Source of the DNA: Mauremys mutica
Lineage: Eukaryota > Chordata > Testudines > Geoemydidae
Assembly: GCF_020497125.1 (NCBI RefSeq)
Contig: NC_059084.1
Location: 33,386,203-33,450,202 of the forward strand
Reading direction: 5' to 3'
Length of the DNA stretch: 64,000 nt
The position numbers and the translations under genes are program-made. The notes under the pieces are model-generated. The model did no database searches, was not told the DNA's origin, and worked only from the letters and a program-made list of their open reading frames with translations. Shown here one piece after another: positions 20,024 to 64,000 of the stretch. Numbering within the stretch: the first letter of the stretch is position 1; every line of letters begins with the position of its first letter.

Positions 20024-20103
20024 TCAGAGCCCGAAGACAGCAGGGCCAACGCTGCAGCCCAGCAGGGTGTTGGCGGCTTCCAGACATTCGCTCAGCCGGG
20101 GCC
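20024..20103 (-). CDS. VWA5A: Gene B exon 18 (terminal)
   Basis: 80 coding bases after a TTGCAG acceptor. They encode [15 protein letters not shown] and end PAVFGL with TGA at 20,024-20,026. The human protein ends in the similar DPAIFAF, which fixes the frame and stop. Confidence 0.88.
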
Positions 20104-26100: not shown

Positions 26101-27544
26101 CCCAGTCCCATGGACAGGATGGTTCTGATTAAATATAAGCCCAAACATTGCTGGAGCCAGGCCCACGTTCCTGAGTATTGGTGGAGCAGGGGAACCACAG
26201 GCCCATATATCTCCCCGCCTATGTTGTGAGATCCTTTTGTAGCTCTTCGCAGTCTGCCTGGGACTTAACTATCTTGAGTAGTTTTGTATCTGCAAATTTT
26301 GCCACCTCACTGTTTACCCCTTTTCCCAGATCATGTATGAACATGTTGAATGTATGCCCACTTTCCAGATCATGCATGAATATGTTAGCGCTGGTCCCAG
26401 TACAGACCCCCTGGGGGACACCACCAGTTACCTCGCTCCGTTCTGAGAACTGACCATTTATTCCTACCCTTTGTTTCCTTGGGGAGGGATAGCTCAGTGG
26501 TTTGAGCACTAGCCTGCTAAATCCAGGATTATGAATTCAATCCTTAAGAGGGCCATTTACATATCTAGGGCAAAAATCTGTCTGGGGATTGACCCTACTT
26601 TGAGCAGGGGGTTGGACTAGATGATCTCTTGAGGTCCCTTCCAACCCTGATATTCTATCTTTTAATCAGATACCCATGCATGAGAGAACCTTCCCTCTTA
26701 TCCCAGGACAGCTTACTTTGCTTAAGAGCCTGTGGTGAGGGACCTTGTCAAAGGTTTACTGAAAGTCCAAGTACACTATAGCCACTGGATCCCCTTTGTC
26801 CACATGCTTGTTGACCCCCTCAAAGAATTCGAGTAGATTGGTGAGGCATGATTTCCCTTTACAAAAACCATGTTGACTCTTCCCCAGCAAATTCTGTTCA
26901 CCTACGCGCCTGAGAATTCTGTTCTTTACTATAATTTCAACCAGTTTGCCCGGTACTGAAGTCAGGTGTATTGGCCTGTAACTGCCGGGATCGCCTCTGG
27001 AGCCATTTTTAAAATTTGGTGTCACATAAACTAAAAATGCCTGGAGAACAGCTAATCAATTTGTTCCAAAACCTCCTTGAATGACATCTCAATCTGGGAC
27101 AGTTCCTCAGATGTGTCATCTAAAAAGAATGGCTCAGTTTGGGAATTCCCCCCTCCCCCAACCTCAGCTGTGAAGACCAATGCAAAGAATTAATGTAGTT
27201 TCTCCGCAATGGCCTTATCGTCCTTGAGTGCTCCTTTGGCACCTCGTTCGTCCAGTGGCCCCTCTGGTTGTTTAACAGGCTTCCTGCTTCTGATGTTCTT
27301 AAAATTTTTTGCTGTTACTTTTTGAGTCTTTGGCAAGCTGTTCTTCACATTCTTTTCTGACCTTCCTAATTATATTTTTACACCTCACTTGCCAGGGTTT
27401 ATGCTTCTTTCTATTTTCCTCACTAGGATTTAACTTCCACGTTTTAAGGATGCCTTTTTACCTCTCACTGCTTCTTTCAGAGTTACCACCCAGGAGGGGG
27501 TGGGAGGTTCCTGGCTCAGTCACTGACCCCAAGCCCTGGGGGCG

Positions 27545-27581
<37 letters not shown>

Positions 27582-30500
27582 GGGGGAAGGGGGGGTTGTT
27601 CTCTCACCTGGGGCTGCCCGCGGAGCTGGGCGTAGATGAGGCACCGCTGCCCAGGGAAGATCACCTCAGGGCCCCGGCTCAGCAGCGCCGCCTCCATCCC
27701 GGGGGGCAGATCCCAGCTCAGCGATATCCCAGTCATGGCCGGCTGCAGGGCCCGCTTCAGAGACTGCAGCGCCTGCGGGGAGAGACTGGCACACACAGGA
27801 TGGGACCAGGACACCAGGGTCCTACCCCTGGCATGGGGGGGGAGGGGAGGCATAGGGACTGGTGGGTTAGAGCGGGGGGGGGGGGGGCTGGGAGTCAGGA
27901 CTCCTGGTTCTCTTCCAGCTCTGGAAGGGGAGTGGGGTCTGGTGGGTTAGAGCCAGGGGAGCCCGGACTCCTGGGTTCTGTGAAAGTAGAATGAATTATA
28001 TTGTAAAAATAAGAATGGATTAAAGAAATGTTGTATGTACCTTTAAGCAGAAATAAGAAATGTTGAAATACAGGTGCCAGGAAAAGAAACATTAGGCATA
28101 AACAATGGTGCTAATGGTGAAACATTAACAGAAGATTGGTAATAGTTAATAAGGAAAAAAGATATGCATGCCTAGCCCAGGTAAACTTATCTGATTCTGC
28201 TTCCTTTGTTATCTTGTTAAGTTCTCACCCTTTTATCTGTATAGATAAGATAGTTTGTGTCTTGCACGGCGCTCACATTATCTGGGTGTTATTAGCAGAG
28301 CGCTGTACTAATAAAACAGAGTGGTCTGACAACCTGTGAGTCCTGAGTCTAACTTTGACAGTTCTCACCTTGGGCTGCATGCGGTCCTGGCCCGTGATGA
28401 ACTCGGCGCTGCCCCCTGCTGCCCGGGCGATGCCTTTGACCAGAGCCGTGGAGGCCCCTTCCCCGATGCCGAAGGAGAAACACCTGCAGGAAGGCAGAGT
28501 CCGGAGTGGGGGGTCAGAGACAGGAGTAGGAGGGGCAGAGCTGGGGGGTCAATTCAGTGCTGGGGGGCAGTTGGAGAGGGGCCAGCAGGGCTGGGGGGCA
28601 GGGTGAGGTGAAGGGATGGGCAGATGCTGGGGTTGGGGTCTCTCTGTTGGCAGGGCTGGGGGGAGATGATAGGGGCAGAGGTTCTCCATGCTGGCAGGGC
28701 TGGAGGGAGAGAGTTTGAGGGGGGTCTCCAGGTCGGGAAGGCAGGCAGCAGCTTTGGCGAGATAATGGGAGGCAGGGTTGGTGGGTGCTCGGGGTCCCCA
28801 GGCTGGAGGGAGAGAGTTTGGGGTTGCTGAGGGTGCCCATGCCAGTAGGGTGGGGGGGACAGTGTTTGGGGTTACTGGGGGGCTCTCCAGGCAGGCAGGG
28901 CTAAGGGGACAGGGTCTGGGGTTGCTGGGGGGGGTCCCCAGGCCAGCAAGGCTGGGGGCAGGGTTGAGGGGTGCTGTGGGGCAGACGCTCCCCAGGACGG
29001 CAGGGCTTGGAGCAGGGTTGAGGGGTGCTGTGGGACAGACGGTTCCCAGGGCAGCAGGGCTGGGGGCAGGGTTGAGGGGTGCTGTGGGGCAGAGAGTCCC
29101 CAGGCGGCAGGGCTGGGGGCAGCTTTGAGGGGTGCTGTGGGACAGACGGTCCCCAGGGCAGCAGGGCTGGGGGCAGGGTTGAGGGGTGCTGTGGGGCATA
29201 TCACAGACCCGCTGCAGGGCCCGAGCACTCAAGCCGGACACCGGGCAGAGCAGAGCAAAGCAGGGGTCAGTGCGTCGCACGTGCCCGGCGTGTGCCCTGG
29301 GAACTACAGCTGCTCTGAATTTGTGAGAGCCAGAGACACGGCGGCGGCGGTGTTGTCACCTCTCCGTAACCCTGCTGATCACGAGCTCACCCCGCCCCAT
29401 AGTTCCTTGTGCTTGTGCCGCTGGAGCAATCCCGAGTGCGGGTGTTTCGGGGTGTGAGGATGGATGGTCTCAGCCATCGCACCGTGTCTCCCGCATTGGC
29501 ACCTGGCCCATGTAAATGCAGACCCGCGTTCACTCCGAAGCACAGCTCCCGACGCAGGCCGATGGACGCGCCATGAACTGTCTGCGTTCAGGCCACACAG
29601 CGAGACCTGGGCGCTGATGGAAACTCGCCGGATGGTTTTAAGCGAGGAAAAGGGACCCTGGGAGGGATCGCGCGTCTCCGAGCTCTTTGGCTGCCATCAG
29701 GGGCCTTCTGGACACCAGGCTGAGGTCCCCAAAGCCATTCCGGGGCACCCTTGGGGAATGCAGATCCCACATCTCTCCCATCCTCTGAATTCACAAACCG
29801 ACTCACCTGCTCCGTGGTTCACTGCGCTAACCTCTCGCTGGCTGTTCCCTTCTCCGAGCTAACACACCCGCGGTTAGTTCACAGGCGAGCTCTGGAGTGT
29901 CCCGTCAGCGGGCTCAGTGCCTGGAGAACCATGTGACTTTGGGTTGATGCCCAATCTCGTTCCATCCAGTCTGTCCGGGGATCAGTTTGGCTGGAGCACC
30001 CACGGGGGCCGTCCGTGGTGAGACTGGCCCGTGAGCCGGGTGTGCATGCCTGGTCCTGGCTGGGGAACCGAATTCCAGGGAACACCCCCAGGCTGGGGGT
30101 TGGGGAGCCTGCCTTGGCTTCCTGCGCTGAGGTTGGCACTCAGCTGGGGGCCACTCTGCACCGTGACAGCAGGGTTGGGGGGGTGGTAGGGGGCAGGGTG
30201 GGGAGTCGCTGGGAGGCAGGACTTGGAGGGTGCTTGGGGGCAGGGTGGGAGGGATGCTGGGGGGGGCAGGTGCCCCCTTTACCTGTGGGCCCCCTGGTGA
30301 CGCTGCACCTCAGTGATGACGTCCTTGGTGTTCCCCACCTCCCCGTCTGTGAACACGAACAGCTGGCGGGGGAGAGACGCTGTCAGAGCCGGGGACCCCA
30401 AATCCTCCTGGAGACACCCCCTCCCCCTGGGAATGGGGGCAGCCCCCAGAGAGCCTGCCCCACTGACCCCCCTCCCAGAGACCTCCCTGGCACTCCTCCC

Positions 30501-33500
30501 TTCCTCCCAGCGCTGCCACCCAGCTCTAGACAGAGGTAGCCCCCCTTAGCTCCTGCCCACCACGGACTGCTCCCACCCCCAGGGGCACTGGCCCCCCATT
30601 GGTGACAGTCCCACTCTGAGCCCTCCCGTAAAGCCTCTGTCAGCTACCCCCCCAGCCCCTCTCCAAGCACCCACCATCAGCTCCCCCCAGCCCCTCTCCA
30701 AGCCCCGGGACACCCTGCTGCTGCCCCTGATACCTGGCGTGGGTGCCCGTCCCGGCAGGGGCTGTGCTAAATGGCTCGTAGCGGTGCCAAGATCTCGGTG
30801 CCCCCCAGGTCGGCCTGGAGCTGCTGGATGCGCTGCAGGGACTCGGCCATGGTCTGTTGGGTGTATGCCACGCTCTGCCTGCGGGGGGGGGCGCCGAGGG
30901 ATCAGGGGGAGGCTCAGCTGAAGCAAGGGACATCCCGACCCCAGCCAGACCTGCCCCCAACCCAGCGACACCCCAACACCATCCTGCCCTGCCACAAACC
31001 CCCAGCCCTGGACTCACGGGTAGAAGGACTCAAACCGAGACCCAAAGCCGTAGATGTTGAAATAACAGCCCAGGGGCAAACTCTTCAACAGCAGGACCAG
31101 GGTCTCCTGGGGAGGGACAGACAGATGAAGTCACTCCCCCGGGCCTAACCAGCTTGGGCTGTTCCTCCACCCAGCTCTGCCCCCCAGGCCCAGCCAGCCT
31201 GAGCTGCTCCCCTCCACAGGCCCATCTAGCGCGGCCTCCCGCCTGGCCGTACCTTGGCACTGTTGATGCGCTGGGATGAGCGGTCTCGGCCGTCCATGGG
31301 GCACTGCATGCTGCCGGAGCGGTCCAGCAGGAAGATGAACTCCCCGGATGGGCTCTGGCCTGGCACCGCCTCAGGCAGGCTGGGCAGCAGGGTCACCATC
31401 ACGGCCGGGTCGCCCATCAGGGAGCCTGCGGGGAGACGGGGCCAGCCCCAAATGGAGCAGGCATGGGGTTGAGCCCTGTGAGTCTGCGAGAGCCCCCAGG
31501 CCCACCTGACTGCTCCAGCCAGAGCCCAACCCATGTCCCTCCTCTCTCCTGCCCTCCCCATAGATCCCCTACCACCCCCAGTGCCCGACTGCCCCTGAGC
31601 CCGACCTCTCTGTCCCTCCCCCCATATCACCCTCTCCCTAGATCCCCCACCATCCCCTGACTGCCCCAGAGCCACACCCCTCTGTCCCTCCCTTCACACC
31701 TCTTTCCCCTAGATCCCACACTGATCCCAATTACCAGCCCCTCAGCGCCTTCCCTTCCATCCCCTGTTCTGTGCCGTATCCCTGAACCTGAAATGCATCC
31801 CAGTGTCTACCTGCTTCCAGGCACCCCACCCTCCCACTCCCTGCTCCGCTGAGACCCCCCCTCTGGTTCCCAGCTTCTTCTGGTCTCCCCCACCCCAGCT
31901 CCACACACACACCTCATCCCCAGCTCCTTCAACACCCACCCACAATCATAAGAATGGCCAGACTGGGTCAGACCAAATGTCCATCTAGCCCAGTATCTTG
32001 TCTGCCAACAGTGGCCTATGCCAGGTGCCCCAGAGGGAATGAACAGAACAGGGAATCACTGAGTGATCCATCCCCTGTCACCCGTCCCCAGCTTCTGGCA
32101 AACAGAGGCTAGGGACACCATCCCTACCCATCCCGGCTAATAGCTGTTGATGGACCTATCCTCCATGAACTTATCTAGCTCTTTTTTGACCGCTGTTACA
32201 GTCCTGGCTTTCTCAACATCCTCTGGCAAGGAGTTCCACAGATTGACTGTGCAGTGTGTAAAGAAAGACTTCCTTTTGCTTTTTTTAAATCTGCTGCTTA
32301 ATTAGTTTCATTTGGTGACCTCTGGTTCTTGGGTTATGAGGAGTAAATACCACTTCCTTATTTACTTTCTCCACACCAGTCATGATTGTGTAGACCTCGA
32401 TCATATCCCCCCTTAGCTGTGTGAAGAAATATTTCCTTTTGTTTGTTTTCAATCCGTTGCCTGTGAGGGCGAACCATGGATTTATCTAGAGCAGCGTTTC
32501 TCAAACTGGAGTCCGCGGACCCCTGGGGGTCTGCGAGGGAACTCCATGGTGTCTGCGGGTCCCGCTGACAAACTCTTCCCTCTTCCTCGCTCAACTCCTC
32601 CGCCTGGAAACGGCTGCCAGCTCCCTGTGGCCCCATGGCAGCCAGTGAGGCTCCGCTCATGGCCCCCGCCCGAGAGCTGGCTCCGCAGTTCCCATTGGCC
32701 AGGAAGGGGCAGGGCAGGGGAGAGGTCCCTGAAAATTTTAAAATCAAAGTGGGGGACCTCAGGTTGCTACAGTTTGAGAACTGCTGATCTAGAGGCGATA
32801 CAATATTTTTTGTCTTGTTATTTATCCCTTTCCTAATGATTCCTAACATTCGGTTTGTTTTTTGGATTGCAGCTGCACTTTCAGTGGATGTTTTACTCCT
32901 CGGGGAATTCGGCACCACTGCGCATGCGCAGAATTTATGTCCAGTGCCGATTTCCTTGCTTCCCTGCAAAAAAAATGACTTCCTATCAGGGAAGCAAAGG
33001 GAAGCCACAAGAGTGGGCATGTGACCCTCCCAGCCGTATGTTTCAGGTGCCCAGGGCAGCCAGTGGAAGGTAAATCACTGTGGGGCAGGGGGCAGGACTG
33101 GGAAAGATCCAGCTAGTGGCTCTTGTCCTGTGCTGGGTTCAGCTGCTGGTCCCGGCTGGGTTGGGGAGGTCGGGACTTCCTCTTCCCCGGCAGGGCAATT
33201 GGGGCCGGGTCAGACCCACCCCCAGATTTCTCCCCCAACTGCAGGAAGCTCTGCAAACTCCTCCCCCCCCACTTCCTGCACCCATCGCTCCTCAGCTGAA
33301 GGGGGAGGGATCCCTGTACAGGGAGCTGCTCCCCCATCCGTCCAACCCATGTGCATCCAGACACCCCCATACCCAGACCCTCCCACTGAATCTCACCCCC
33401 CCGCACTCAGAACCTCCCCTGATGAGCCCCACTCCCACTACACCTGGACCACCCCAACGAGCCAACTGCACTCAGAGCCCAACCCCACTGAGCCCCAACC

Positions 33501-36500
33501 CACCCCAGAGCCCACCCTGCTGAGCCCTAACCACCTTCACCCTAACCCCCTGCAGAGTCCCATTATCTTTGCACCCAGAACCTCCCAACAAGCTCCTGTG
33601 CATCCAGATCCCCTGCTGCAGATCCCGCACTGAGCTGCCCACACCCAGACTGCCTCACCCAGAGCCCTCTCACCCCACACCTGCATCCCCCCACACTAAG
33701 CCCCTCCACGCTTGGATCCTGCCTTGCTGAGCCTGCCTGCCCCACACCTGGTGCACCTGGCACAGAGGGCAGGGCCTTGGGGTGTTTCTGGGGCAGGCCC
33801 GGTCCTTGCACAGTGAGGGTTGGGTGCAGCCTCACCACTGAGTCCGTGTCCCGGGGGGAGCTGCACAGTGATCTCCCACCTCTGTGCAGCCAGTGGCCCA
33901 TGCTCCCCACTGCCAGGCTGGAGCCTCCACATTTATTTGACAAATAACATTTGCAGAAATTTAGAACACGGTGCCTGGAATTTTTATATTTTTGGAGCAG
34001 AATTTTTAACGTTTTGGCGCAGAATGCCCGCAGGAGAAATGTTTTCAGAGAACTAGCCACGAAGACTCCAAGATCTTTCTTGAGTGGTCACAGCTAATTT
34101 AGACCTCGTCATTTTATACGTCTAGTTGGGATGACGTTTACCAGTGTGCATCACTCTGCACTTATCAACACTGAATTTCATCTGCGGCTTTGTTGCTCAG
34201 TCACCCAGCTTTGTGAGGTCCCTTTGTAACTCTTCACAGTCTGCTTTGGGCTGAGCTATCCTGAGTAGTTTTGTATCTTCTGCAAATTTTGCCACCTCAC
34301 TGTTTACCCCTTTTTCTACATCATTTATGAATATGTTGAACAGCCCTGGTCCCAGTACAGACCCCTGGGGACATCACTATTTACCTCTTTCCATTCTGAA
34401 AACTGACCCTTTATTCCTACCCTCGGTTTCCTGTCTTTGAACCAGTTACCAGTCCATGAGACGACCTTTCCTCCTATGCCCTGACAACTTACTTTGCGTA
34501 AGAGCCTTTGGTGACGGACCTTGGAAAAGGCTTTCTGAAAATCTTAATACACTATATCAGGGGTGGGCACACTTTTTGGGCTGAGGGCCACATCTGGGTG
34601 GGGAAATTGTATGCAGGGCTGGCGCAGGGGGGTGGGGTGTGTGAGGGGGTGCGGCGTGCTGAAAGGAGCTCAAGGCAAGGGATTGGGGCAGAGGAGGGGT
34701 GTGGAGTGTGGGAAGGGGGCTCAGGGCGGGGGTTGGGGTGCGACAGGGGGCTCAGGGCATGGAGTTGGGGGGTAGGAGGGGTGCATGGTGCAGGCAGGGG
34801 GCTTAGGGCAGGGAGCTGGGGTGCGGGGTGTACGAGGGGGCTCAGGGCAGGGAGTTGGGGGGCAGGAGGGGTGCACGGTGCAGGCAGGGAAATTAGGGCG
34901 GGGAGTCGGGGGGTGGGGTGCAGGAGGGGTGCAGGGTGTACGAGGGGGCTCAGGGCAGGGAGTTGGGGTGCAGGAGGGATGTAGGGTGTATGAGGGGGCT
35001 CAGGGCAGGGAATTGGGGTGTGGGAGGGGTGCGCGGTGCAGGCAGGGGAATTAGGGCGGGGAGTCGGGGGTGGGGTGCAGGAGGGGTGCAGGGTGTAGGA
35101 GGGGGCTCAGGGCAGGGAGTTGGGGTGTAGGAGGGGTGCATGGTGCAGGCAGGGGGCTTAGGGCAGGGAGCTGGGGTGCAGGGTGTACGAGGGGGCTCAG
35201 GGAAGGGGGTTGGGGTACAGGAGGGGTGCGGGGTGTACGAGCGGGCTCAGGTGCGCAGTGCAGGCAGGGGAATTAGGGCAGGGAGTCGGGGGGTGGGTGC
35301 AGGAGGGGTTCGGGCTCCGGGGTGGCAGCGGCGCACACCAGGGCCGGCTCCCTGCAGGCCTGCCCTGTCCCCGGCCCCGCGCCGCTCCAAGAAGCGCTGA
35401 GGCCCCTGGGGGAGAGGGGGCGGAGGTCGCTGCGTGTGCTGCCCTTGCCACGCGTCCAGGTACCTCCCCTGAAGCTCCCATTGGAGGCGGTTCCCCATTC
35501 CTGACCAATGGGAGCTGCGGGGGACGGTGCCTGGAGGCAACACACGGAGCCTTGTGACCCCCCCAACCCGGGAGCTGCAGGGACGTGGTGCCGGTGGTGC
35601 CATGGGCTGTCGCCAAAGCCCTGAGGGGCCAGATCTGGCCTGTGGGCCATAGTCTGCCCACCCCTGCACTATATCCCCCCATTCCCCTACCATCCCCCTC
35701 ATTGCCCCGGGCCCCCTGAACCCAAGTCACTGCCCAGAACCCCCCCGCACCCCAACATCCCCATCCCATGGATCCACTGGCCAGGGCAGCAGGGTGCAGG
35801 ACCCCTCCGCACCTGGCTCTGCTTCGGGCAACCCGAGCTCCAGCACCGCGCTGGGTTTGTGCGGCTCCGCGTAATACACCAGCAGCTCCATGTCCCGGTC
35901 CCACGGGGGGGTCTCGGCCAGAGAAACCTGGGGGGAGACAGACACCGTCACCTCCCCTCGGCTCCTGGGGGGGGGGCAGGGTTCCCAGGGTGCCCCCCAT
36001 GCAGCCGGGGGGAGGGAGCAACTCCGGGTTAGGAGGGAGGGAGAGAGGGAGGGAAAAACACCCCAAAGGGCCACACAGGGACTTGGCTCTTCTTGCAGAA
36101 AACACTGGGAAAATTCTGACTTTGTTTGGCTAAATCTTTCCAATTTGGGGGTGATATTTTCCCACCCCCCATTTTCTTCCATTCAAAATGAAGGAGAAGG
36201 AAACTCCCAGAAAGCAAAGGGAACCAGGACCCTCGAATGTCCAGGATTTCACCCCCACAGGCTGGTCTCAGCCCCTTGAGATTTTCCCCAGAGAACATGG
36301 GCAATTCCCTGGATCTTTTGGTGTCGCTCAACCCTCTTCCCCGCCACCCCCGCCCTGCCCCAGAGCTCCCACCCCTGTATATGCTCACCCTGGCACCCAC
36401 CCCTCAGCCCAGAGTCCCCATCACCCCCTGCTCAGAGCTGCCCGCCCATATTGATCCTCCAAGTGGGATACTGGGGACCCAAGTGTCCGGGTGAGCCCTT

Positions 36501-39500
36501 ACCTGGGCGCTGGTCCGGTTCCCGGCCGTGTAGCTCAGGGGGGTGAGGGAGCAGTTGGAGAGCACGCGGTCGATGCCGTGGGGTGACTGCAGCGTGGCGC
36601 TCAGTCTCAAGGTGTAGGGCAGCTCCCCCTGGGGGACTCGCGGGACCCCCTGGGTGACGTCCTCCCCGTCCCACCCTGCAGAGAGAGACACGGGGTGAGC
36701 ACGGGCCCAGGCAGAGACAGATGCATCCTGGAGGCGAATGCCTGGCTGTGAAGATGGTGTCGCCAGGAGCGCTTTGGCTTTCTTGAGCACGAGCTGCTGT
36801 TCCAGGAAGAAGGATGCTAAGCAGAGATGGGGCCCAGCTAGCGAGGAAGAGGAAGAGCATATTTGGCTACAGACTGGCTGGCCTAGAGAGGAGGGCTTGA
36901 AACTAGGTTTGACGGGGGCAGGTGACCAAAGCCCTCAGGTAAGTCAACAACATGGAGACCTGGGAGAAGGGTTGGAATTTGGGGGGAGCATGGGCTGTTA
37001 TGGGAGGGATAAAGGAGAGACAAGACAGAACTGGTGGGGGGGGGAATCAAATCAGTATCTTAGATGTCTGTATACGAAGGTGAGAAGTACGGGGGAATGT
37101 GGAGGAAAAATGTTTTGAGGCCTAAACTTTGGTTAAGCAAACTGTATGTACGGCCTGAAGGTAGAAAAAGGAGGGGAAGGTCGAAAAAAGAAGGGTAGAA
37201 AGAAATTATAAAAGCAGAACTAACTGTAGAAACTAGAGAAGCAAAATTAACCATTTGTATCAGCTTGTGATGAATAGCTGCCAGGTGACAGAGGAAGAAA
37301 CCACAAAGGGCAAAACTAAGGAAAACAGGAAAAGCTGCTTTGCTTCATGCCGTATGTGGATGTAAAGTTTTAAGGAAGTATATGTAATTTTTGTGGTTTT
37401 ATCCTATATAAGCTCTCGTATTTTATCTATCCGGGTCGGGAGGTGGAGGGGGTTCGGCTGCCTTGGCTGACTCCCCCATTCATGCATGTTTGATTGATCA
37501 ATAAAGGAGCCTCAGGCTAATCTGATCCAAAATTAATCATGTGGTCGATTTTTCCACAACAGGAATAAGCAAGAAGAACTGGTAATGCTAGTAAATAAAC
37601 ACAACTATGACAGTTGGCATCACAGAGACTTGGTGGGAGAATTCGCATGACTGGAATATTGGGATAGAAGGGTACAGCTTGCTCAGGAAGGACAGGCAGG
37701 GGAAAAAGGGAGGAGGTGTTGCCTTGTATATTAAAAAGGTGTATGCCTGGACTGAGATTTAGATGGAACTAGGAGACAGACTTGTTGAAAGTCTCTGGGT
37801 AAGGATAAAAGGGGTAAAAAACAAGGGTGATGTCAGGGTAGGGGTCTACTACCGACCATCTAACCAGGAAGAACTAACAAAATCATCCAAAGCACAGGAC
37901 TGGGTGGTGATGGGGGACTTCAATTACTCAGACCTCTGCTGAGAAAATAACACAGCAGGGCACAGATTAGCCAAAAAGTTTGTGGAATGTAGTGGAGACA
38001 ATTTTTTATTTCAGAAGGTGGAGAAAGCTACCAGGGGAGAGGCTGTTCTGGATTTGATTTTGACAAATAGGGAGGAGCTGGTTGAGAATCTGAAAGTGGA
38101 AGGCAGCTGGGGTGAAAGTGATCACGAAATGGTAGAGTTCATGATTCTAAGGAATGGTAGGAGGGAGAACAGCAAAATAAAGATAATGGATTTCAAGAAG
38201 GCAACTTTAGCAAACTCAGGGAGTTGGCAGGTGAGGTCCCATGTGAAGTGAGTCTAACAGGAAAAACAATTGGAGACAGTTAGAAAGGCCAAGGCACAAA
38301 ACGAGATCAAACCAGCCAGAGACATAAAGGGTAACAAGAAAACATTCTACATTAGAAGCAAGAGGAAGATGAAGGACAGGGTAGGCCCATTACTCATTGG
38401 GGGGAGGGAAGGGAGAATAGCAGAAAATGCAGAAATGGCAGAGATGCTTAATGACTTCTTTGTTTCGGTTTTCACCAAGGAGGCTGGTGGTGACTGGACG
38501 TCTAACACAGTGAATGCCAGTGAAAACAAGGTAGGACCAGAAGAGGCTAAAATAGGGAAAGAACAAGTTAAAAATTACTTAGACAAATTAGATGTCTTCA
38601 GGTCACCAGGGCCTGACGAAATGCATCTTAGAATACTCCAGGAGCTGACTGAGGAGATACCTGAGCCATTAGCAATTATCTTTGCAAAGTCATGGAAGAT
38701 GGGAGAGATGAAAAAGACAAATCTAGTGCCTATCTGTAAAAAGGGAAATAAGGACAGCCCTGGAAATTACAGACCAGTAAGATAATGGAGCAAATAATTA
38801 AGCAATCAATTTGCAAACACCTAGAAGATAATAAGGTGATAAGTAACAGTCACCATGGATTTGTCAAAAACCAATCCTGTTAAACCAACCTGACAGCTTT
38901 CTTTAACAGGGTAACAAGCCTTGTGGATGGGGGGAAGCAGTAGATGTGGTATATCTTGACTTTAGTAAGGCTTTTGATACTGTCTCCCATGACCTTCTCT
39001 TAAACAAACTAGGGACACGCAATCTAGCTGGAGCTACTATAAGGTGAGTGCAAAATGGTTGGAAAACCATTCCCAGAGAGTAGTTATCAGTGGTTCACAG
39101 TCATGCTGGAAAGGGATAATGAGTGGGGTTCCGAATAGATCAGTTCTGGGTCCGGTTCTGTTCAATATCTTCATCAATGATTTAGATAATGGCATAGAGA
39201 GTACACTTGTAAAGTTTGAGAAAGATACGAAGCCGGGAGGGGCTGCAAGTGCTTTGGAGGATAGGATTAAAATTCAAAATGATCTGGACAAACTGGAGAA
39301 ATGGTCTGAAGGACAAATGCAAAGTACTCCATTAGGAAGGAACAATCAGTTGCACACATACTAAATGGGAAATGACTGCCTAGGAAGAAATACTGCGGAG
39401 GGGGTGAGGGGAATTCTGCGCCAGACGTGAATTCTGCGCAGAAATTGGAGAGAGTCCAGAGAAGAGCAACAATATTGATTAAAGTTCTAGAAAACATGAC

Positions 39501-42097
39501 CTATGAGGGAAGATTGAAAACATTGGGTTAGTTTAGTCTTGAGAAGAGAAGACTGAGAGGGGACATGATAACAGTTGTCAAGTATGGATAACGTTGTTAC
39601 AAGGAGGAGAAAAAAATTGTTTTTCTTAACCTCTGAGAGTAGGACAAGAAGCAATGGGCTTAAATTGCAACAAGGGAGGTTTAGGCTGGACATTAGGAAA
39701 AACTTCCTATCTGGGTGGTTAAGCACTGGAATAAATTGCCTAGGGAGCTTGTGGAACCTCCAACATTGGCGATTTCTAAGAGCAAACACCTGTCAGGAAT
39801 GGCCTAGATAATGAATCCTGCCATGAGTGCAGGGGACTGGACTAGATGACCTCTCGATGTCCCTTCCAGTCCTATGATTCTATGGGGGGAATGGGCTATT
39901 GAGGGGCATGGGGGGATGCTGGGATATCAGGAAAGGGCCTAGGGGGAGTCACATACCCTGGAGCGGGGATTGCAGGGCTGAGGGGGGGCTTACCATGGGG
40001 CACATAGTAGTGACCTATGGGTCTATGAAGGTCCCTGTGGGTCTTTCCCTGTGGGGTATGCAGCAGGGGCTAGGGGACCTTGTGGGGTTACAGGCTGTGG
40101 GGTCACTCGCTATAGGGTGTGCAGTAGGGGTGTTGGGGACTGCGGGTCTCACCAGGCAGGCTAAAGTGGCAGGGGGATCTGTGGGTCTCACCATGGGGCG
40201 TGTAGCGGGGACGCAGCACGGCTGGCAGCATGTAGCGGGCAGCTCCATCTGGCTCCAGCGGCAGCTCGCAGACGTAGCGCAGGGTCAGCACCGCCTCCTC
40301 CCCAGGGGGCAGGTTCCCCAGGGAGCAGCTGAAAACATCGCCCCCGGCCCCTTCCTGCTGCAGCAAGAAGGAGCTCTGCCCCCCGGCCAGCGCATCACCA
40401 TACATCTCTTGTGCCTGCCGGAGAGACAGGGTCATCCCGAGATCCCCCTGCCCTGCCCCCCAACCAGCACATCTTCATACAGGTTACTTCTGGGGGAATT
40501 CTGCACCACTGCGTTTGCGCAGAATTCACGTCTGGCGCAGAATTCCCCTCATCCCCTCCGCAGAAAATACATTCTGCCCAAGAAGTGCTGCAGTTCCACC
40601 TTTTACCCACCAGAGGCGAGTTCTTCACAGCATCCTGCCCGCGAAGCCAGGTTAGGACGGAGTGGGGCACACGGGGTTGCAGGGGGGTGGTGGTCACAGA
40701 GAGGGGTTCAGAAGGGCTGGTGGGGGGAGAGGCTGGGCTGTGGGCTCAGGAGCTAGTGGGGTGACACCATTGAGCCAAGGACTGAATGGGAGGGGGGCTG
40801 CAGGGCCACATGAGAGCAAGGGAAGGGGGATGCAGGGCACACAGGGATGGGGGAAGAGGCTGCAGAGATCGATGGGGTGTGTCTGACTGAATGGGAGAGG
40901 CTTGGGGTGACCCAGGGTCTGCATGGCGGAGGCTCCCCAACTCCCTAACAATCCCTCCCCCGCAAAACACCTGTTCCATAATTCTCCCTCCCACCCGCAA
41001 CAATCCTCGAGGTTCACTCCAGACTCCTTCCCTCTCCCTCAGCTCCTCCGTTACCCCTGACTCCCCGAAGCCTTTGTGCTGCTTCTGAGGGGGGCAGGAA
41101 ATCCGGTTCTATATTGTAGTTTCAATGAATTCTTACACCAAGTTCTGTATGAATAGGCCTCAAAAGGAATCTATTCAATGAAAAAAATTACCAGAATCTT
41201 TGTTTTGGTCTGTGTTGTTACAGACGTACTTGCTGACACTATTTTGAAATAAATTACCAAAATAATGGAAGCTGGCGTGACTACATTGTGCTATTTTGAC
41301 AAGAAAAATGCAAAATTTTAATTTTTTGGTGCCTAATTCCCCCAGGAGTAACAGCTCCTGCACCGCCTGTAGTGACAGGGTCAGCCTGAGCTCTCCTTAT
41401 CCCACGAGATCCCACTGCCAGCGTGTTTCCGTACAGCTCCTGTGTGTGCCGGGAGAGACAGCGTCACCCCGAGATTCCCCATTCCCCCGACATCCCCCTG
41501 CCCTGCCCCCTGGCAAGCACGTCCCTGTACAGCTCTTGCAGCTGCCGGGAGAGATGGGGTTACCCTGAGATCCCCCTGACTCCCAACAGCGCACTGCCCT
41601 GCCCCCTAGCCAGTGCGGGCGTACCCATACCCTGCCCCCTGGCACCGTCTCTCCCCCATGGGACCCATGCCCCCCTGGTACCTGTTTCTTCTCTCGGAGC
41701 TGGGCCTGGATGCAGGTGCCCCGCAGGCGGGCCTGGAAGGCATAGACGGCCGCCTCGGCGTCCACGGGGAACACGAACACGGCCTCCACGGGCCCCTGCT
41801 CATCGTTCCTGTAGAGCAGCTCACAGCCCACGTCCGCCACGAAGCCTCGGATCAGCACCGTCACCGAGCCGCTGCGCAGGGGCACTGGGGAGAGACGGAC
41901 ATCAGCCAGGGGCCCCTCTGACCCCCACGGGCACTGGGAAAGGGGGATGTCAGCCATGGGCCCCCCCACCACACACCCCCATAGGATCCAGGGGAGGGGG
42001 GCATCAGTCATGGGACCTCCCCCCCGCCCTGACTCACCCGGCTTGTTGGAACTGTTCAGGAGGCCGCAGCTCCTCATCTCGGTCTGGGGTCGGGGAT
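20024..42097 (-). CDS. VWA5A: VWA5A-like gene, copy B (VIT and vWA domains)
   Basis: Seventeen coding exons join to 835 codons including the stop; human VWA5A has 786 residues. Exons 2-6 encode the N-terminal VIT domain. Exons 7-12 encode the vWA domain, with all MIDAS elements present: DRSGS in exon 7, the threonine of GGTEIL in exon 9 and the aspartate of FTDGEV in exon 10. Exons 13-18 encode the C-terminal region ending PAVFGL, close to the family terminus. All borders are GT/AG and phases agree throughout. Codon 376 is TAG (30,767-30,769), which would truncate the protein inside vWA. VWA5A is an intracellular protein of poorly known function and a proposed tumour suppressor (BCSC-1). No promoter is evident. 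The start is the ATG at 42,075-42,077, followed by RSCGLL as in the family. Functional state is uncertain because of the stop. Confidence 0.92.
20532..20658 (-). CDS. VWA5A: Gene B exon 17
   Basis: 127 bases between CCACAG and GTGAGA. They encode [15 protein letters not shown] and [14 protein letters not shown], the well conserved C-terminal helical region of VWA5A. The reading phase passes correctly to exon 18. Confidence 0.9.
21220..21356 (-). CDS. VWA5A: Gene B exon 16
   Basis: 137 bases between CCCTAG and GTGAGT. They encode [18 protein letters not shown], matching the conserved QNANGSWDL block of the family. Confidence 0.9.
22446..22772 (-). CDS. VWA5A: Gene B exon 15 (variable linker)
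   Basis: 327 bases between GCCCAG and GTGAGG, fully open. They encode a low-conservation linker with [15 protein letters not shown] and end in PPETASQK. Phases match exons 14 and 16. The corresponding exon of copy C (63,248-63,606) is much more diverged than the surrounding introns. Confidence 0.85.
23688..23896 (-). CDS. VWA5A: Gene B exon 14
   Basis: 209 bases between GCACAG and GTAACC. They encode [14 protein letters not shown], then [14 protein letters not shown] and [13 protein letters not shown], which are strong family signatures. The donor-side coordinate could be off by one base. Confidence 0.9.
24291..24394 (-). CDS. VWA5A: Gene B exon 13
   Basis: 104 bases between CTTCAG and GTGACA. 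They encode [20 protein letters not shown], corresponding to the beta-rich segment after the vWA domain. Confidence 0.88.
24650..24880. repeat. Hairpin-bearing DNA-transposon-like repeat
   Basis: A long imperfect palindrome spans 24,681-24,748, with TAACTACGTC on the left and TGACGTAGTTA on the right. The outer flanks (GTCTCATCTACACC near 24,653 and ATAGACGTGCCCC near 24,862) look like imperfect terminal inverted repeats. It lies in intron 12 of gene B. The family is not recognised. Confidence 0.5.
25699..26127. mobile_element. GC-rich DNA element inserted in CR1
   Basis: The ends CAGAGCCGTCCAGTCCAT and ATGGACAGGATGGTTCTG form an imperfect terminal inverted repeat. The interior contains CAACTGCCCCAGGTCCC and related GC-rich inverted segments resembling the elements at 1,479 and 15,724. 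No clear target duplication. Confidence 0.6.
26481..26660 (+). mobile_element. tRNA-derived SINE, tortoise Pol III type
   Basis: It starts GGGGAGGGATAGCTCAGTGG, a tRNA-like A box, followed by the B-box-like GATTATGAATTCAATCC. Its tRNA-unrelated part reads GGGGATTGACCCTACTTTG and GGTTGGACTAGATGATCTC, and it ends CAACCCTGATATTCTAT. I recognise this structure as the cryptodiran turtle SINE. It is inserted in the CR1 relic of intron 12. Confidence 0.88.
27545..27580. repeat. (TG)n microsatellite next to an exon 12 donor
   Basis: About 18 uninterrupted GT/TG dinucleotides, which is (CA)n on the gene strand. They start only about 27 bases into intron 12 of gene B. Confidence 0.95.
27608..27772 (-). 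CDS. VWA5A: Gene B exon 12
   Basis: 165 bases between CCGCAG and GTGAGA. They encode [24 protein letters not shown] and [15 protein letters not shown], the end of the vWA region with strong family matches. Confidence 0.9.
27979..28360 (+). mobile_element. Solo LTR beside the exon 11 donor
   Basis: 382 bases from TGTGAAAGTAG to AACTTTGACA, flanked by the exact 4-base direct repeat GTTC (27,975-27,978 and 28,361-28,364). ACTAATAAAACAG at about 28,307 gives a plus-sense polyadenylation signal, so the LTR is antisense to gene B. The insertion starts eight bases after the 5' splice site of intron 11. It is not part of the duplicated area seen here. Confidence 0.85.
28369..28483 (-). CDS. VWA5A: Gene B exon 11
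   Basis: 115 bases between CTGCAG and GTGAGA. They encode [20 protein letters not shown] and [16 protein letters not shown], almost identical to the vertebrate family block. Confidence 0.93.
28550..29205. repeat. Minisatellite in intron 10 of gene B
   Basis: About a dozen degenerate units of roughly 55-60 bases, built on GGGTTGAGGGGTGCTGTGGG, then a GACAGACGGTCCCCAGG-like block and GGCAGCAGGGCTGGGGGCA. The last five units (28,950-29,205) are the most regular. Confidence 0.88.
29230..30270. other. Intron 10 remainder, nothing recognised
   Basis: No exon, RNA gene or repeat family is recognised. The base composition is less skewed than the neighbouring introns, with CpG dinucleotides fairly common. 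A short imperfect inverted pair around GGTTCACTGCGCTAAC (29,816) and GGTTAGTTCACAGGCG (29,872) is visible. Confidence 0.5.
30283..30362 (-). CDS. VWA5A: Gene B exon 10
   Basis: 80 bases between CGCCAG and GTAAAG. They encode [20 protein letters not shown]. The aspartate of FTDGE is the third MIDAS metal-site element of the vWA domain. Confidence 0.92.
30734..30878 (-). CDS. VWA5A: Gene B exon 9 with in-frame TAG
   Basis: 145 bases between CCGCAG and GTATCA, with phases fitting both neighbours. It encodes [15 protein letters not shown] and [19 protein letters not shown], followed by TAG (30,767-30,769, codon 376), then [11 protein letters not shown] to the donor. The two relic exon 9 copies read TTC CGC at the two codons where B has TAG CAC. 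The stop falls after the MIDAS threonine and before the MIDAS aspartate of exon 10. Confidence 0.88.
31018..31106 (-). CDS. VWA5A: Gene B exon 8
   Basis: 89 bases between CCCCAG and GTGAGT. They encode [20 protein letters not shown] and [10 protein letters not shown], a strongly conserved piece of the vWA fold. Confidence 0.93.
31253..31425 (-). CDS. VWA5A: Gene B exon 7 (MIDAS DxSxS)
   Basis: 173 bases between CCGCAG and GTACGG. They encode [18 protein letters not shown] and [24 protein letters not shown] is the primary metal-ion-dependent adhesion-site motif of vWA domains. Confidence 0.94.
32492..32786. mobile_element. hAT MITE with exact target duplication
   Basis: The 17-base ends CAGCGTTTCTCAAACTG and CAGTTTGAGAACTGCTG are near-perfect inverted repeats. 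The 8-base direct repeat ATCTAGAG flanks them at 32,484-32,491 and 32,787-32,794. It is 295 bases long and non-coding. Confidence 0.92.
32890..34050. mobile_element. Unclassified DNA element with GGGGAATTC-type ends
   Basis: The left end has ACTCCTCGGGGAATTCGGCA and CACTGCGCATGCGCAGAATT. The right end around 33,975-34,040 has GCAGAATTTTTAACG and GGCGCAGAATGCCCGCAGG, a degraded inverted counterpart. A related element lies at 40,487-41,351 and a short piece at 39,405-39,440. The interior 33,100-33,900 is C-rich and non-coding. Confidence 0.5.
34558..35666. mobile_element. hAT-like element carrying a minisatellite
   Basis: The ends CAGGGGTGGGCACACTTT and AGTCTGCCCACCCCTG are terminal inverted repeats, flanked by the exact 8-base repeat CACTATAT (34,550-34,557 and 35,667-35,674). 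No transposase is encoded. More than half of the interior is a tandem array. It is inserted in the CR1 relic of intron 6. Confidence 0.9.
34640..35330. repeat. Minisatellite inside the hAT element
   Basis: Roughly 14 units of about 45-50 bases share GGGGGCTCAGGGCAGGGAGT, TGGGGTGCAGGAGGGGTGC and GGGTGTACGA blocks. Higher-order periods of two to four units are visible, for example repeated runs with the GGGAATTAGGGCGGGGAGTC variant at about 34,888, 35,046 and 35,268. Confidence 0.88.
35813..35927 (-). CDS. VWA5A: Gene B exon 6
   Basis: 115 bases between CCCCAG and GTGCGG. They encode [20 protein letters not shown] and [17 protein letters not shown], at the VIT-to-vWA junction. Confidence 0.9.
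36503..36675 (-). CDS. VWA5A: Gene B exon 5
   Basis: 173 bases between CTGCAG and GTAAGG. They encode [20 protein letters not shown] and [20 protein letters not shown], matching the VWA5A family. The acceptor lies only about 60 bases from the inserted CR1 of intron 4. Confidence 0.91.
36740..39884 (+). mobile_element. Long CR1 LINE, antisense in intron 4 of gene B
   Basis: The 5' part resembles CR1 sequence before the endonuclease. Endonuclease remnants are in 37,610-38,230 (GVALYIKK, then [15 protein letters not shown] and [10 protein letters not shown]). Reverse transcriptase follows in broken frames from 38,270 to about 39,360 ([48 protein letters not shown]). The 3' end is the CR1 hallmark CCTATGATTCTATG. 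Several frameshifts make it inactive. A solo LTR has landed inside it. Confidence 0.9.
37098..37561 (+). mobile_element. Solo LTR nested in the CR1
   Basis: 464 bases from TGTGGAGGAAAAATG to TTTTTCCACAACA, flanked by the 4-base repeat GGAA (37,094-37,097 and 37,562-37,565). CCTATATAAGCTC at about 37,404 is a TATA box and AATAAAGG at 37,500 a polyadenylation signal, so the sense is plus. The CR1 sequence resumes directly after it. Confidence 0.9.
40192..40414 (-). CDS. VWA5A: Gene B exon 4 (VIT)
   Basis: 223 bases between CGGCAG and GTGAGA. They encode [40 protein letters not shown] and [20 protein letters not shown], the core of the VIT domain, with strong family identity. Confidence 0.94.
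40487..41351. mobile_element. Unclassified DNA element with GTTACT..GGGGGAATT ends
   Basis: The left end GTTACTTCTGGGGGAATTC and the right end AATTCCCCCAGGAGTAAC are inverted repeats with one mismatch. Next to the left end lie GCGCAGAATTCACGTCTGGC and GCAGAATTCCCC. The interior 40,640-41,080 shows no coding capacity. It lies in intron 3 of gene B. Confidence 0.65.
41682..41884 (-). CDS. VWA5A: Gene B exon 3 (VIT)
   Basis: 203 bases between CCCCAG and GTACCA. They encode [20 protein letters not shown] and [20 protein letters not shown], the first beta strands of the VIT domain. Confidence 0.94.
42038..42097 (-). CDS. VWA5A: Gene B exon 2 with the start codon
   Basis: The exon follows a TGCACAG acceptor. 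Twenty bases of 5' leader precede the ATG at 42,075-42,077, and 40 coding bases encode [13 protein letters not shown] before the GTGAGT donor. The human protein starts similarly with MVHFCGLL, which supports this start. A further non-coding exon upstream is implied by the acceptor. Confidence 0.88.
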
Positions 42098-47180: not shown

Positions 47181-47182
47181 AA

Positions 47183-50872: not shown

Positions 50873-50877
50873 CTCTG

Positions 50878-58600: not shown

Positions 58601-58859
58601 GCCCAAACCATCAGTTAACCCATAACCAAATCTAGTGTTCTCCCTTGAACCATTGTTGGTTCCCCACAAGAAACCCCTCCCCACGCTCGTGTGTGTCCCG
58701 CTGCCTGGATCCAAACTCTGCCTCAGATCCACTGGGACTGGGAGTCCATCTTCTCCTGACTGATCATGCTGGGTCTCTGCCTGTCTCCAGCACTCAGGAC
58801 CCTGAGCTACCACCGTCACCTGGGAACCCCGACCAGTTTAGACTTCAGGGAGCGGTGAG

Positions 58860-59210: not shown

Positions 59211-59559
59211 GGACAGGGACGTGCTGAACCTGGGATCTACGAGGGTGGCAGCCTGGAAGTGCTGCTCGACCCAGCCTGCTGCTGTACTTGTGGCACATAA
59301 GGGGGGGCAGCTTGGAAGTGCTGATTGACCCGGTCCACTCAGACTTGCTCTGTTAATGTGTGTGTGAATCTTCAGGCGGTTCTGGGCACTTGCAGCAGGG
59401 AGAAGTAGAGCTCTGTATGAAAACACAAGTGACACTACAGAGCCCCCCTCCCCCCAGAAACGTAACCCTAATAACTGAGCATACCCCAAAGTAACGGGCA
59501 AAGCTGGTAACACTGGGATTTCGGCACCTCTCTGGAGTTCAGCGCCAGGCAGGGCAGGA

Positions 59560-60660: not shown

Positions 60661-60818
60661 CCAACTGGCTGCTCTTAATTTAGGATCCCTGTGGGGGGGT
60701 TAGCGGGGCTGGAGGCCCAGCGTAGCTGGGGTGGGGGTGGGGTATAGGGATGGGGAGGTTCAGCTGGTTTGGAGGCCCTGGGTAGCTTGGGGGGAGGGGT
60801 ACAGGGATCTGGGGGGGC

Positions 60819-60898
60819 TCAGAGCCCAAAGACAGCAGGGCCAATGCTGCAGCCCAGCAGGGTGTTGGCGGCTTCCAGACATTCGCTCAGCCGGGGCC
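60819..60898 (-). CDS. VWA5A: Gene C exon 18 (terminal)
   Basis: Same length and borders as gene B exon 18. One replacement (Val to Ile in CSIGPAVFGL) is visible. Confidence 0.87.
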
Positions 60899-63606
60899 CT
60901 GCAACGAGAAGAGGGTCGGGGGAGACATCAGCCTGGGGAACAGGGGGGCGGGGGGAGGAGACTCCAGCCAGGGAATGGGGGACAAAGGGCAGAGAGCTCA
61001 CAGCCCGGGGCACTGACCTAGGGGAGCTGTGGGGATGGGGAGCAGGGGGCTGGGAGCCTGTCTGTCCTGGGACTGGAGGCCTCTGGGGGTCTGGCTGGGG
61101 GACCAGAGGCTGTTAGGATGCCGGGGGGCCCATGGGACGCAGGATCCCAGGGCTGTGGTTGGCTGGACTGTGGGGTCCTATGGGGTGGGGTTGGTACTGT
61201 GGGCTTGTGGGATCTTGGGGGGGGTTGGGGGGCAGGCTGGGCTGTGGGACAGTCTCCAGACGGTCGGGGGGGGCTATGGAGGAGGGGCTCTCCAGTAGAG
61301 GGCCTGGGCCGTGCCCCCGACCCCCCCCACTCCCGTCTCACCTGCTTGGCCCCGCACCCAGCCCACAGCCTTGGCCTCCAGCAGCTCCCACTCGTCGCGC
61401 TGCCCCGCGGCCCGGCCGTGCAGCCAGACCACGGCCAGCACCGTGGCCCAGACGCCGGGGGGCACGTCCTGTGCGGGGGGAGAGACACAGCTTGAGACAG
61501 CGCCCAGCCCGTCCCCCAGAGCGCTGCCCCGGCCCTGGGGACCCCCTGAACCCCTCCCAGCGCTGCTCCCAACCTCCTGCCCTAGGGACCCCTCTGCCCT
61601 CCCAGCGCTGCCCCCATTCCCCTGTCCGGGGAACCCCCCCAATCCAGCGCTCCTGCCCCTTCCCCAAACTCAGAGGGTTCCCAGCCCCCCTCCGCTCTAG
61701 CACCCTGGACCCCCTACCCAGATGCCCAGTGCCATGCCCGGGGGTAGGGAGACAGCCTCAGAGAGGACCCAGCCTGGGCCTCCTCATGTCCCCCCTCAGC
61801 CCTGGGCCCCCTCGATCCAACGCTCCAATTCCCTGCAAGGGGGTTCTAGCTCCCCGCTGTGGGCCCGTCTCCCCCACTGGGCTTCAGATTCAGGGGTCAT
61901 TGATCCAGTCGCCCTCAGACCCGCCCCCAGCCTGGGTCACGCCCAGTCTCATCTGGGAGCTGAGAACAGGCCCAACTCATGGCACCTGCCCCCCCATCTC
62001 TCCCCTCTCCTCTGCCTCCTGCACTCACCTTACTGGGCATCCTCCCCCTGGCGTCGGTCTCGCTCACCCCCAGCGCAGCAGCCAGACGGGGGTCCAGGTC
62101 CCACGAGCCGTCGGCATTCTGCAGAGACACCAGCCTCAGCAGGGGAGATTCCTCCGGAGCCCGCTCTAGGGAGAGAGGTGGGGAGATGGCTCTTGCACAG
62201 GGTTATGGGTACAGAACAGCAACGTGGCCTATCCAGGCTGGGGGACAGCCAAGCTTAACTGTGACCCTCTGTGCATCCTTAACTCTGCCCCTGCATGAGC
62301 TTCTTTTATCTACTCCTCTGCATCCTTAACCTTTCCGTGGGCACCCTCAACTCTGCCCCTTCCTGCACCCATGGGATGACAACTAATTTGCAGTTGGAGT
62401 TGGGAACCAAAGTCCCTTGGGCCTCATGAATGTCTCAGCCCCAATCATTAATCTCACAACCCCAGGGTGTTTCTCAAACACAATCTGACCCCGGGACCAT
62501 CCCGCACTACAACCTGTGATACAGACATAGTCCGGGGAGACACAGAAGCGTCTAAGGGTATAGGGGAGACGGGATGTTACACAGTCTATATGATATTACA
62601 GCTGCCTGGGCCAGGGTTATGAGGCAGAGTTAAGGTTACCTGGGCTACAGCAAGGTTGTATTTCCACACTCTTCAAATTCAGGTTTAAGGGGAGCCTTAA
62701 CTAACATTTCTGCCTTTCGTGGGCTTCTTTGTTTAGAAACCAGACCGGGCCAACCACGATCTGTGCCCCTGAACTCACCTGTACAAACACCCGAGCCTGG
62801 GCCCAGCTTCACAAGGTATTTTTGTCTGGGAATTTAGCTGTGCCCATTTCAGAGAAAACTGCCCAGCGACATTTCTGTTACTAAAAAGCGACTGATTACC
62901 CCCTCCGCTGCCCAGCTGGGCCCTCCCCACATGTAGCTCATTAATACAAACTCACCCCCCAAATTCCAGCTTCACAGAGTTTATTGCCTGGGAGTTTCCT
63001 TATTTTTCCCATTTTCTTGCAAGATCATTTACGTCCTGACACTTAAAAAACAACCAGCTGCGGATTCCCCCTCCCCCAGCATCACACTGCTGTTTTGCCC
63101 AGGAAGTTCCTTCACTTTCTATGTGGCTGTTAAACACTTGCCCGGCTCTGGGACCGTCAGGGCACGTCTGTCTCTGACCCGATGAAGCGTCATCCTGGTG
63201 TTTCCCCCCATCTCTGAGTCCTGATTCCCAGCCCCTGCCCCCCTCACCTTCCTTGGACGCAGTCTCCAGCAGGGCGCTGTGTGTGCAGGACTTCCTGACC
63301 TTGTGTTGGGGGCTCCCACAGCTGCGCTTCAGCATGGCGAGGGAGCCAGGAGGAGCGGTGCCGGGGGAGGAGAGAGCCCGTACTGGCCATGGGGAGCTCT
63401 GGTGGGGATGGGGGACAAGCAGCGGTTCTCACCTGGCACATCCAAGCTGTCGTCAAAGTCGCAGTCCACGGCGCAGTCCGCGGACTGATAGCAGAGATCT
63501 TGGTCCCAGTCCTCGGGCATAGGGGCGGAACAGCACATGGCCCTGGAGGCCAAGTTCATGTTGCTGAAACCCTGCATCTTCCACATGTGGGGTACGGCCC
63601 CGAAGC
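60819..63606 (-). CDS. VWA5A: VWA5A-like gene, copy C, 3' part
   Basis: The last four coding exons, running off the right edge: exon 18 at 60,819-60,898 (80 bases, ending CSIGPAVFGL, stop TGA), exon 17 at 61,342-61,468 (127), exon 16 at 62,029-62,165 (137) and a diverged exon 15 at 63,248-63,606 (359). Exons 16-18 have the same lengths, phases and splice signals as gene B and are open. Exon 15 is 32 bases longer than in B, which breaks the phase: the frame entering from the 5' side stops at about 63,329-63,331, and the frame needed for exon 16 is a different one. Copy C may be a pseudogene, or exon 15 may be spliced differently. Confidence 0.88.
61342..61468 (-). CDS. VWA5A: Gene C exon 17
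   Basis: 127 bases. Encodes [15 protein letters not shown] as in B. Acceptor GCACAG, donor GTGAGA. Confidence 0.89.
62029..62165 (-). CDS. VWA5A: Gene C exon 16
   Basis: 137 bases. Encodes [18 protein letters not shown] as in B. Acceptor CCCTAG, donor GTGAGT. Confidence 0.89.
63248..63606 (-). CDS. VWA5A: Gene C exon 15, diverged and out of phase
   Basis: It opens GFGAVPHMWKMQG after a CCCAG acceptor and includes SADCAVDCDFDDSLDV, clearly related to B's [16 protein letters not shown] strong internal donor CAG|GTGAGA lies at 63,432-63,427. The 3' part in another frame reads VRKSCTHSALLETASKE, related to B's [17 protein letters not shown]. The internal acceptors I checked do not restore the phase. 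Confidence 0.65.
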
Positions 63607-64000
63607 CTGGGAGGGAGACAGAGAGGGACAGAGACACGCGGACAGAGACAAGCTAAGAGAGGGAAGGGAAATGCCCCCCCCCCACAGCACCCAGAGCCAA
63701 CACACCGATGGGACCCCTCCCCCATGCCCCCCAGTTGGGACCCCCCTAGACCCAGACCCATCCTTCTCTCCCCGCAGCTCCCCCAGAGTCAGGATCTCCC
63801 CCTAGCCCATCCCCCCAAGCTGGGACCCCCTGGATCCCGTCCCTCCCCTGCAGCTTTCCCCCAGCTTAGACCCCTCATCAAGCCCCAGGGGGCACGGGGG
63901 CGGGTGCTGCACCCCATGGATGAGGGCAGGATGCTGGGGGAGGGGGGCGAGAGGCCCCCGCTAGCCAGGCCTGCTCATGACAACGATGCGCCCGCCCCTC

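Follow-up and report, generated by a model that had tools for sequence, protein, structure and literature searches.

A linker exon with the mark of diversifying selection in neighbouring VWA5A-like genes of the turtle Mauremys mutica

The window analysed here, a 64-kb stretch of Mauremys mutica DNA, carries a tandem duplication with a period of ~41–42 kb. Its copies B and C are neighbouring VWA5A-like genes, both on the minus strand (Table 1), and only the exons from 15 onward of copy C lie inside the window. We retain the exon numbering of an earlier note on this DNA, under which exon 15 is the 14th of the 17 coding exons in our model of B. The translation of copy B contains a VIT domain near its N-terminus (PF08487, E 5.3e-23), followed by a VWA domain (PF13768, E 8.4e-21). 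The four best protein matches to copy B, P0001–P0004, are turtle proteins, all named VWA5A-like, and some lower-ranked matches bear other names (P0016, P0044). An in-frame TAG at 30767..30769 (-) falls in the VWA-domain part of copy B, where the relatives P0001–P0004 have no stop; this stop makes copy B a possible pseudogene or null allele. A search of the whole window against Rfam gave no matches, nor did a PDB sequence search with the C-terminal 266 residues of B.

Fragments ~80% identical to the VWA-domain exons of B (30685–31184) occur in the 3' flank of both copies, at 17088–17591 and 57896–58390, and are perhaps relics of an older gene copy. Both units also contain a 2.3 kb segment (8873–11217 and 49697–52036) that matches its own reverse complement at ~75–77%, forming a large imperfect palindrome. 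Three minus-strand open frames of 79–136 residues at 12115–13187 look by eye like retroviral envelope remains, and none of the three was matched by Pfam. Inside the copy B gene, the translations of 25000–27400 and 32300–34500 resemble retroelement remains, again by eye only.

Table 1. Positions of the duplicated blocks and of the coding exons and introns of copies B and C in the window
Feature	Position	Strand	Remark
Duplicated block	6333-23171 vs 47183-64000		96.4% identity
Duplicated block	1-3858 vs 42225-46055		93.0% identity
Duplicated block	3857-4856 vs 46190-47189		97.8% identity
Copy B coding span	20024..42077	(-)	VWA5A-like: VIT, VWA, C-terminal part
Copy B further coding exons, first six	42077-42038, 41884-41682, 40414-40192, 36675-36503, 35927-35813, 31425-31253	(-)	
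Copy B further coding exons, next six	31106-31018, 30878-30734, 30362-30283, 28483-28369, 27772-27608, 24394-24291	(-)	
Exon 14 of B	23688..23896	(-)	immediately upstream of the hypervariable exon
Exon 15 of B	22446..22772	(-)	327 bases, class 1-1, 108 whole codons
Exon 16 of B	21220..21356	(-)	
Exon 17 of B	20532..20658	(-)	
Exon 18 of B	20024..20103	(-)	last coding exon, includes stop
Intron 14 of C, visible part	63607..64000	(-)	8.4% from B; old side of the boundary
Exon 15 of C, long form of the earlier note	63248..63606	(-)	359 bases; as a whole it breaks the frame and includes an in-frame TGA
Exon 15 of C, form probably used	63433..63606	(-)	174 bases, class 1-1; inner donor CAG/GTGAG at its end
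Distal part of exon 15 of C	63248..63432	(-)	now probably intron; frameshifted relative to B
Intron 15 of C	62166..63247 (long exon), to 63432 with short exon	(-)	1.7% from B; young side
Exon 16 of C	62029..62165	(-)	46/46 residues as in P0004
Exon 17 of C	61342..61468	(-)	
Exon 18 of C	60819..60898	(-)	last coding exon, includes stop; 27/27 residues as in P0004

Exon 15 lies where the earlier note had placed it, and both the exon of B and the long form of C are flanked by AG and GT. The long form of C exceeds its counterpart in B by 32 bases, does not keep the frame of the exon that follows and contains an in-frame TGA. An inner donor in C (CAG/GTGAG, after 63433) yields a shorter exon in the right phase, and this donor is missing in B, where TT replaces GT near 22623. 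The M. mutica protein P0004 agrees with the short form in 58/58 residues, the intron interrupting the codon of the first one, and then runs on into exon 16; the remainder of the long form in C is probably intron. M. reevesii P0001 codes for a close relative of that distal part (41/55 residues). As the exon of B and the short form of C are both of class 1-1, skipping or exchange of exon 15 would be possible without a frameshift. With regard to a Dscam-like set of alternative exons arranged in tandem within the gene, a scan of introns 14 and 15 of copy B found no other open class 1-1 exons at the thresholds used. A 34-base mini-intron inside exon 15 of C was also considered, and was dropped because the remaining length breaks the frame.

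The divergence between B and C is concentrated in this exon. Among 218 windows (100 bases, at least 50 aligned columns each), the three with the lowest identity are all inside exon 15 (65.5, 70.0 and 73.5%), and the next lowest reaches 89.0%, which bears out the earlier claim that the exon is far more diverged than its surroundings. Exon 15 has 90/314 mismatches (28.7%) and 58 gap columns. The accompanying statement that it differs in most positions overstates the DNA divergence, as 71% of the aligned bases agree, but over the codons that both copies translate 29/48 aligned residues are different. Downstream, mismatches amount to 18/1082 (1.7%) in intron 15, 9/560 (1.6%) in intron 16, 12/424 (2.8%) in intron 17 and 221/13590 (1.6%) in the 3' flank; exon 16 has 2/137, exon 17 has 1/127 and the 82 bases around exon 18 have 2/82, and a single amino acid of 114 differs over exons 16–18. 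The introns around exon 15 had been described as nearly identical, and on this side they are. Upstream they are not: in the portion of intron 14 that lies inside the window, 33/392 positions are mismatched (8.4%; Fisher 7e-9 against intron 15), with a gradient from ~13% in the 200 bases beside exon 15 to ~4.5% in the following 200. In 40-base steps, the divergence drops at once below the exon-15 donor and tapers over ~200 bases above the acceptor. Seen from one side exon 15 is thus an island, and seen from the other a step, with young DNA downstream and an older intron 14 upstream.

Our rate test is one DNA comparison, B against C, over the first 48 codons, which are coding in both copies and include one in-frame 24-base gap and ~30 silent sites. 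By NG86 these codons have 35.5 replacement and 2.5 silent changes (dN 0.405, dS 0.087, dN/dS 4.7; bootstrap of dN minus dS, 0.15 to 0.48), and without the 11 codons around the gap dN and dS are 0.369 and 0.067. The other estimators gave 0.376/0.212 (LWL85, dN/dS 1.8), 0.410/0.136 (YN00, 3.0) and 0.598/0.078 (maximum likelihood, 7.7) for the same codons. The ratio thus varies between 1.8 and 7.7 by estimator, and the suggestion of diversifying selection on a linker gains support. Codon positions 1, 2 and 3 of the 48 shared codons have 15, 20 and 3 differences, and in the 3' half of the exon, read in the frame of B, they have 23/57, 21/55 and 7/56, which is unchanged under three gap penalties. 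Pooled over exon 15, positions 1 and 2 differ at 79/208 sites and position 3 at 10/104 (Fisher 5.8e-8). Since the 3' half of the exon in C is probably non-coding now, its codon rhythm must stem from B or from the past. No such rhythm was found in intron 15 (7, 5 and 6 differences over the three phases) or in the 3' flank (78, 76 and 67), and the 33 differences of intron 14 (6, 14 and 13) are not significantly uneven (p 0.18).

We compared these counts with neutral expectations drawn with the intron ratio of transitions. Among 38 neutral changes, 11.3 (starting from B) or 9.8 (from C) should be silent, against the 2.5 observed; the neutral probability of at most two silent changes is 0.00025 or 0.00085, and that of at most three is 0.0009 or 0.0054, for B and C respectively. 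A Fisher test on sites alone gives 0.021 or 0.005, depending on how the 2.5 silent changes are rounded. Replacement change is about four times that of intron 14 (Fisher 2e-8), whereas the silent divergence of 2.5/30.5 sites matches the 33/392 of intron 14 (Fisher 0.73) and is above that of intron 15 with p 0.017 or 0.099, again depending on rounding. The exon therefore appears no older than its upstream neighbour, and could be of the same age as intron 14, its replacement sites having been accelerated, although the neutral level is itself uncertain, as intron 14 climbs to ~13% beside the exon. The excess of replacement change over both the silent sites and intron 14 is the mark of diversifying (positive) selection, in one pair of copies.

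The proteins of other turtles display the same contrast between the linker, as we call the part encoded by exon 15, and the rest of the molecule. Copy B and P0004, which represents C, agree in 544/574 residues over exons 1–14, 22/59 in the linker and 78/78 in exons 16–17; for B and M. reevesii P0001 the values are 552/574, 73/112 and 74/78. In exons 1–14, B is closer to Pangshura (553/574) than to C. Exons 16–17 of Pangshura P0003 agree with B and with C alike (77/78), so these exons are too similar for proteins to date an exchange. This first comparison comprised copy B and 32 proteins. Of these 33, 29 could be cut into a part before the linker, the linker itself and a part after it, nine of them with hand-set anchors; P0015, P0028, P0037 and P0039 were left out.

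Linkers of both types recur outside M. mutica, the C type in Chelonoidis (47/67) and the B type in Gopherus (77/118) and in M. reevesii. For the trees we took 12 of the 29 proteins, picked so that B-like, C-like and outgroup linkers were represented. Each tree leaves five of its nine inner branches open, and our readings use only the branches named here. The linker tree unites C with Chelonoidis (100/99), B with M. reevesii (87/88), and the latter two with Gopherus and Pangshura (90/96), and it rejects B with C (AU 8.5e-6). The tree of exons 1–14 instead joins the two tortoises (82/91) as well as B, M. reevesii and Pangshura (96/97), and rejects the linker groups, both C with Chelonoidis (AU 0.021) and the four B-type rows (AU 0.011). 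The exon-15 types thus cross turtle families, contrary to the tree of exons 1–14. Tortoises and Geoemydidae separated more than 50 million years ago. Exons 1–14 of C are closer to those of other Geoemydidae than to those of the tortoise sharing its linker type; because they do not follow the linker, a history of two old lineages is insufficient by itself, and further exchange is needed. The M. reevesii linker is a mosaic, its 5' half closer to B (42/54) than to C (17/45) and its 3' half closer to C (41/55) than to B (22/48), which points to exchange within exon 15. Several distinct linker types occur within M. mutica itself (P0004, P0011, P0021). The search for the C-type exon in other turtle genes that the earlier note had proposed was run on proteins, and it reaches only those sharing exact words with the query. 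From six candidates it returned three proteins, namely P0004 itself, M. mutica P0112 and Chelonoidis P0006 (68%), so that a tortoise relative was recovered but no closer match outside M. mutica. We set P0112 aside, as it joins exon 15 of C to 3' exons that deviate slightly and its annotation may be mis-joined.

The variability of the linker extends beyond turtles. We considered the best 120 of 2753 matching proteins, and alignment allowed 107 of them to be divided at the linker. Over 31 proteins, the pairwise identity of a column averages 0.16 within the linker and 0.70 in the remainder. The linkers are at most 42% alike or hardly alignable in 33 of the 39 same-species pairs that we compared from reptiles, monotremes and a caecilian; these pairs are non-independent, and some of the 33 are, or may be, isoforms. 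Two of the 33 have no aligned linker residue and two have five or fewer, yet the 200 residues before the linker are 84–100% alike in 30 of them and the 75 residues after it are 72–100% alike in all 33. Five further pairs with linkers 98–100% alike are probably isoforms, duplicate records or one gene, and a Macrochelys pair stands at 71%. Two alligator proteins that are named isoforms X1 and X2 (P0037 and P0040) have different linkers and no difference anywhere else, so a Dscam-like arrangement may apply in the alligator; P0039 and P0037 disagree in three 40-residue bins beyond the linker. The axolotl isoforms are combinations of repeated linker units.

According to an AlphaFold model of P0004 (31 sequences, mean pLDDT 74, pTM 0.71), exon 15 is predicted to encode a disordered linker between the VIT–VWA body and a C-terminal helical part. 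Model confidence is 27–34 in the blocks covering residues 601–670 and 68–96 afterwards, and residues 600–672 form the longest of three stretches below 50. By fold, the nearest structure is inter-alpha-inhibitor heavy chain 1 (6fpy, TM 0.47 by query), which is uninformative on the linker.

Several histories could leave such an exon. If exon 15 of one copy had been acquired by gene conversion from an older third paralogue, as the earlier note had proposed, positive selection would be unneeded; the M. reevesii mosaic suggests that pieces of exon 15 do move, and the presence of several linker types inside M. mutica is consistent with this. However, an old import would raise silent and replacement divergence together, and the silent divergence is low, no higher than that of intron 14; nor did the protein search, among proteins sharing exact words, reveal a closer donor for the exon of C outside M. 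mutica. We consider this source of the divergence unlikely. We are equally sceptical of the idea that old exon types were maintained by selection against conversion, without accelerated change, and that homogenisation took place only around exon 15. It would explain the trans-lineage exon types, at odds with the groups in exons 1–14, as well as the fall of divergence with distance upstream of the exon, but age alone cannot push codon positions 1 and 2 above position 3. Old exon types and accelerated change may act together.

Relaxed constraint or pseudogene decay in one copy is a very improbable cause. The stop codon in the VWA part of B and the frameshift in the long exon 15 of C would fit it, yet decay cannot exceed the neutral rate of the adjacent introns, and the replacement rate is already above it in the comparison of B with C. 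Furthermore, exon 15 of B is open over its whole length and retains its splice sites, and the short form of C occurs in a database protein, P0004. That protein may derive from the same assembly, which would deprive the match of its value as independent proof, and tandem copies 98% alike are difficult to assemble; an assembly artefact or a chimeric contig is nevertheless scarcely credible, because neither exon type is confined to M. mutica, the C type having relatives in Chelonoidis and the B type in Gopherus and M. reevesii.

We favour, at a probability of roughly three in four, a combination of diversifying selection on a linker exon on the old side of a boundary, a recent crossover or conversion that homogenised the 3' parts, and a changing partner as the source of the selection. 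B and C would be older paralogues in their 5' part. A recent unequal crossover or a long conversion tract, ending at or near the exon-15 donor, would have homogenised their 3' parts and flanks, and such an exchange probably did homogenise the copies downstream of that donor. With the end of the tract near the donor, the fast exon sits on the old side of a sharp boundary. Selection would favour copies with a new or distinct linker, a putative disordered, target-binding segment that would bind a partner which keeps changing, such as a pathogen factor; the linker of C is also shorter, probably through the inner splice donor.

A wider reading is tentative, and we think it rather less likely to be right than wrong. 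The VWA5A-like genes of tetrapods would form a recognition or decoy family engaged in an arms race with a partner, in which the hypervariable disordered linker between two conserved parts would be renewed by tandem duplication, by exchange and, in certain species, by a choice of linker exons. The alligator and axolotl linkers are weak leads in this direction, as are two literature records: VWA5A adjoins MHC genes in the tuatara according to the excerpt of PMC4502378, and Vwa5a appears at 2.02-fold in a mouse table excerpted from a paper on interferon-regulated genes (PMC3923834).

Four published systems come closest. In the accelerated segment switch in exons (ASSET) of snake venoms, as outlined in the excerpt of PMC2711939, short exon segments are radically changed between paralogues; the products there are toxins and the segments are swapped to unrelated sequences, whereas here one whole exon, encoding a predicted disordered linker in a VIT–VWA protein, is affected and B and C can still be aligned. 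The small serum protein array of Protobothrops likewise consists of tandem genes, and one young pair has KA/KS 1.739 and an intron divergence of 0.0649, but the rates in the excerpt of PMC6609765 cover whole reading frames rather than one exon. The GOT1 paralogues of Tigriopus (PMC3728101, in excerpt) differ from our case in being aspartate transaminase genes compared across copepod populations. Extra VWA5A copies have been reported in turtles (PMC10376104), in an excerpt that treats copy number and longevity rather than exon 15. Among the matches listed for VWA5A in our literature searches (turtle, reptile, amphibian, selection, tandem, mutually exclusive), nothing concerned exon 15.

The finding is real and exceeds the curiosity of two copies, its weak point being the single DNA comparison. 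In a family known mostly by name, as a tumour-suppressor candidate and for its copy number in turtles, it makes selection on a single linker open to test, and the conserved parts before and after that linker serve as internal controls. If the codon-level pattern holds in other species, it would point to a molecular conflict so far overlooked in reptiles, monotremes and amphibians, and the linker could serve as bait to find the partner. In an exploratory search with four patterns, short linker motifs were commoner than in shuffled sequences, but any one of them occurred in no more than 8 to 21 of the 85 different linkers, and we drew nothing from them.
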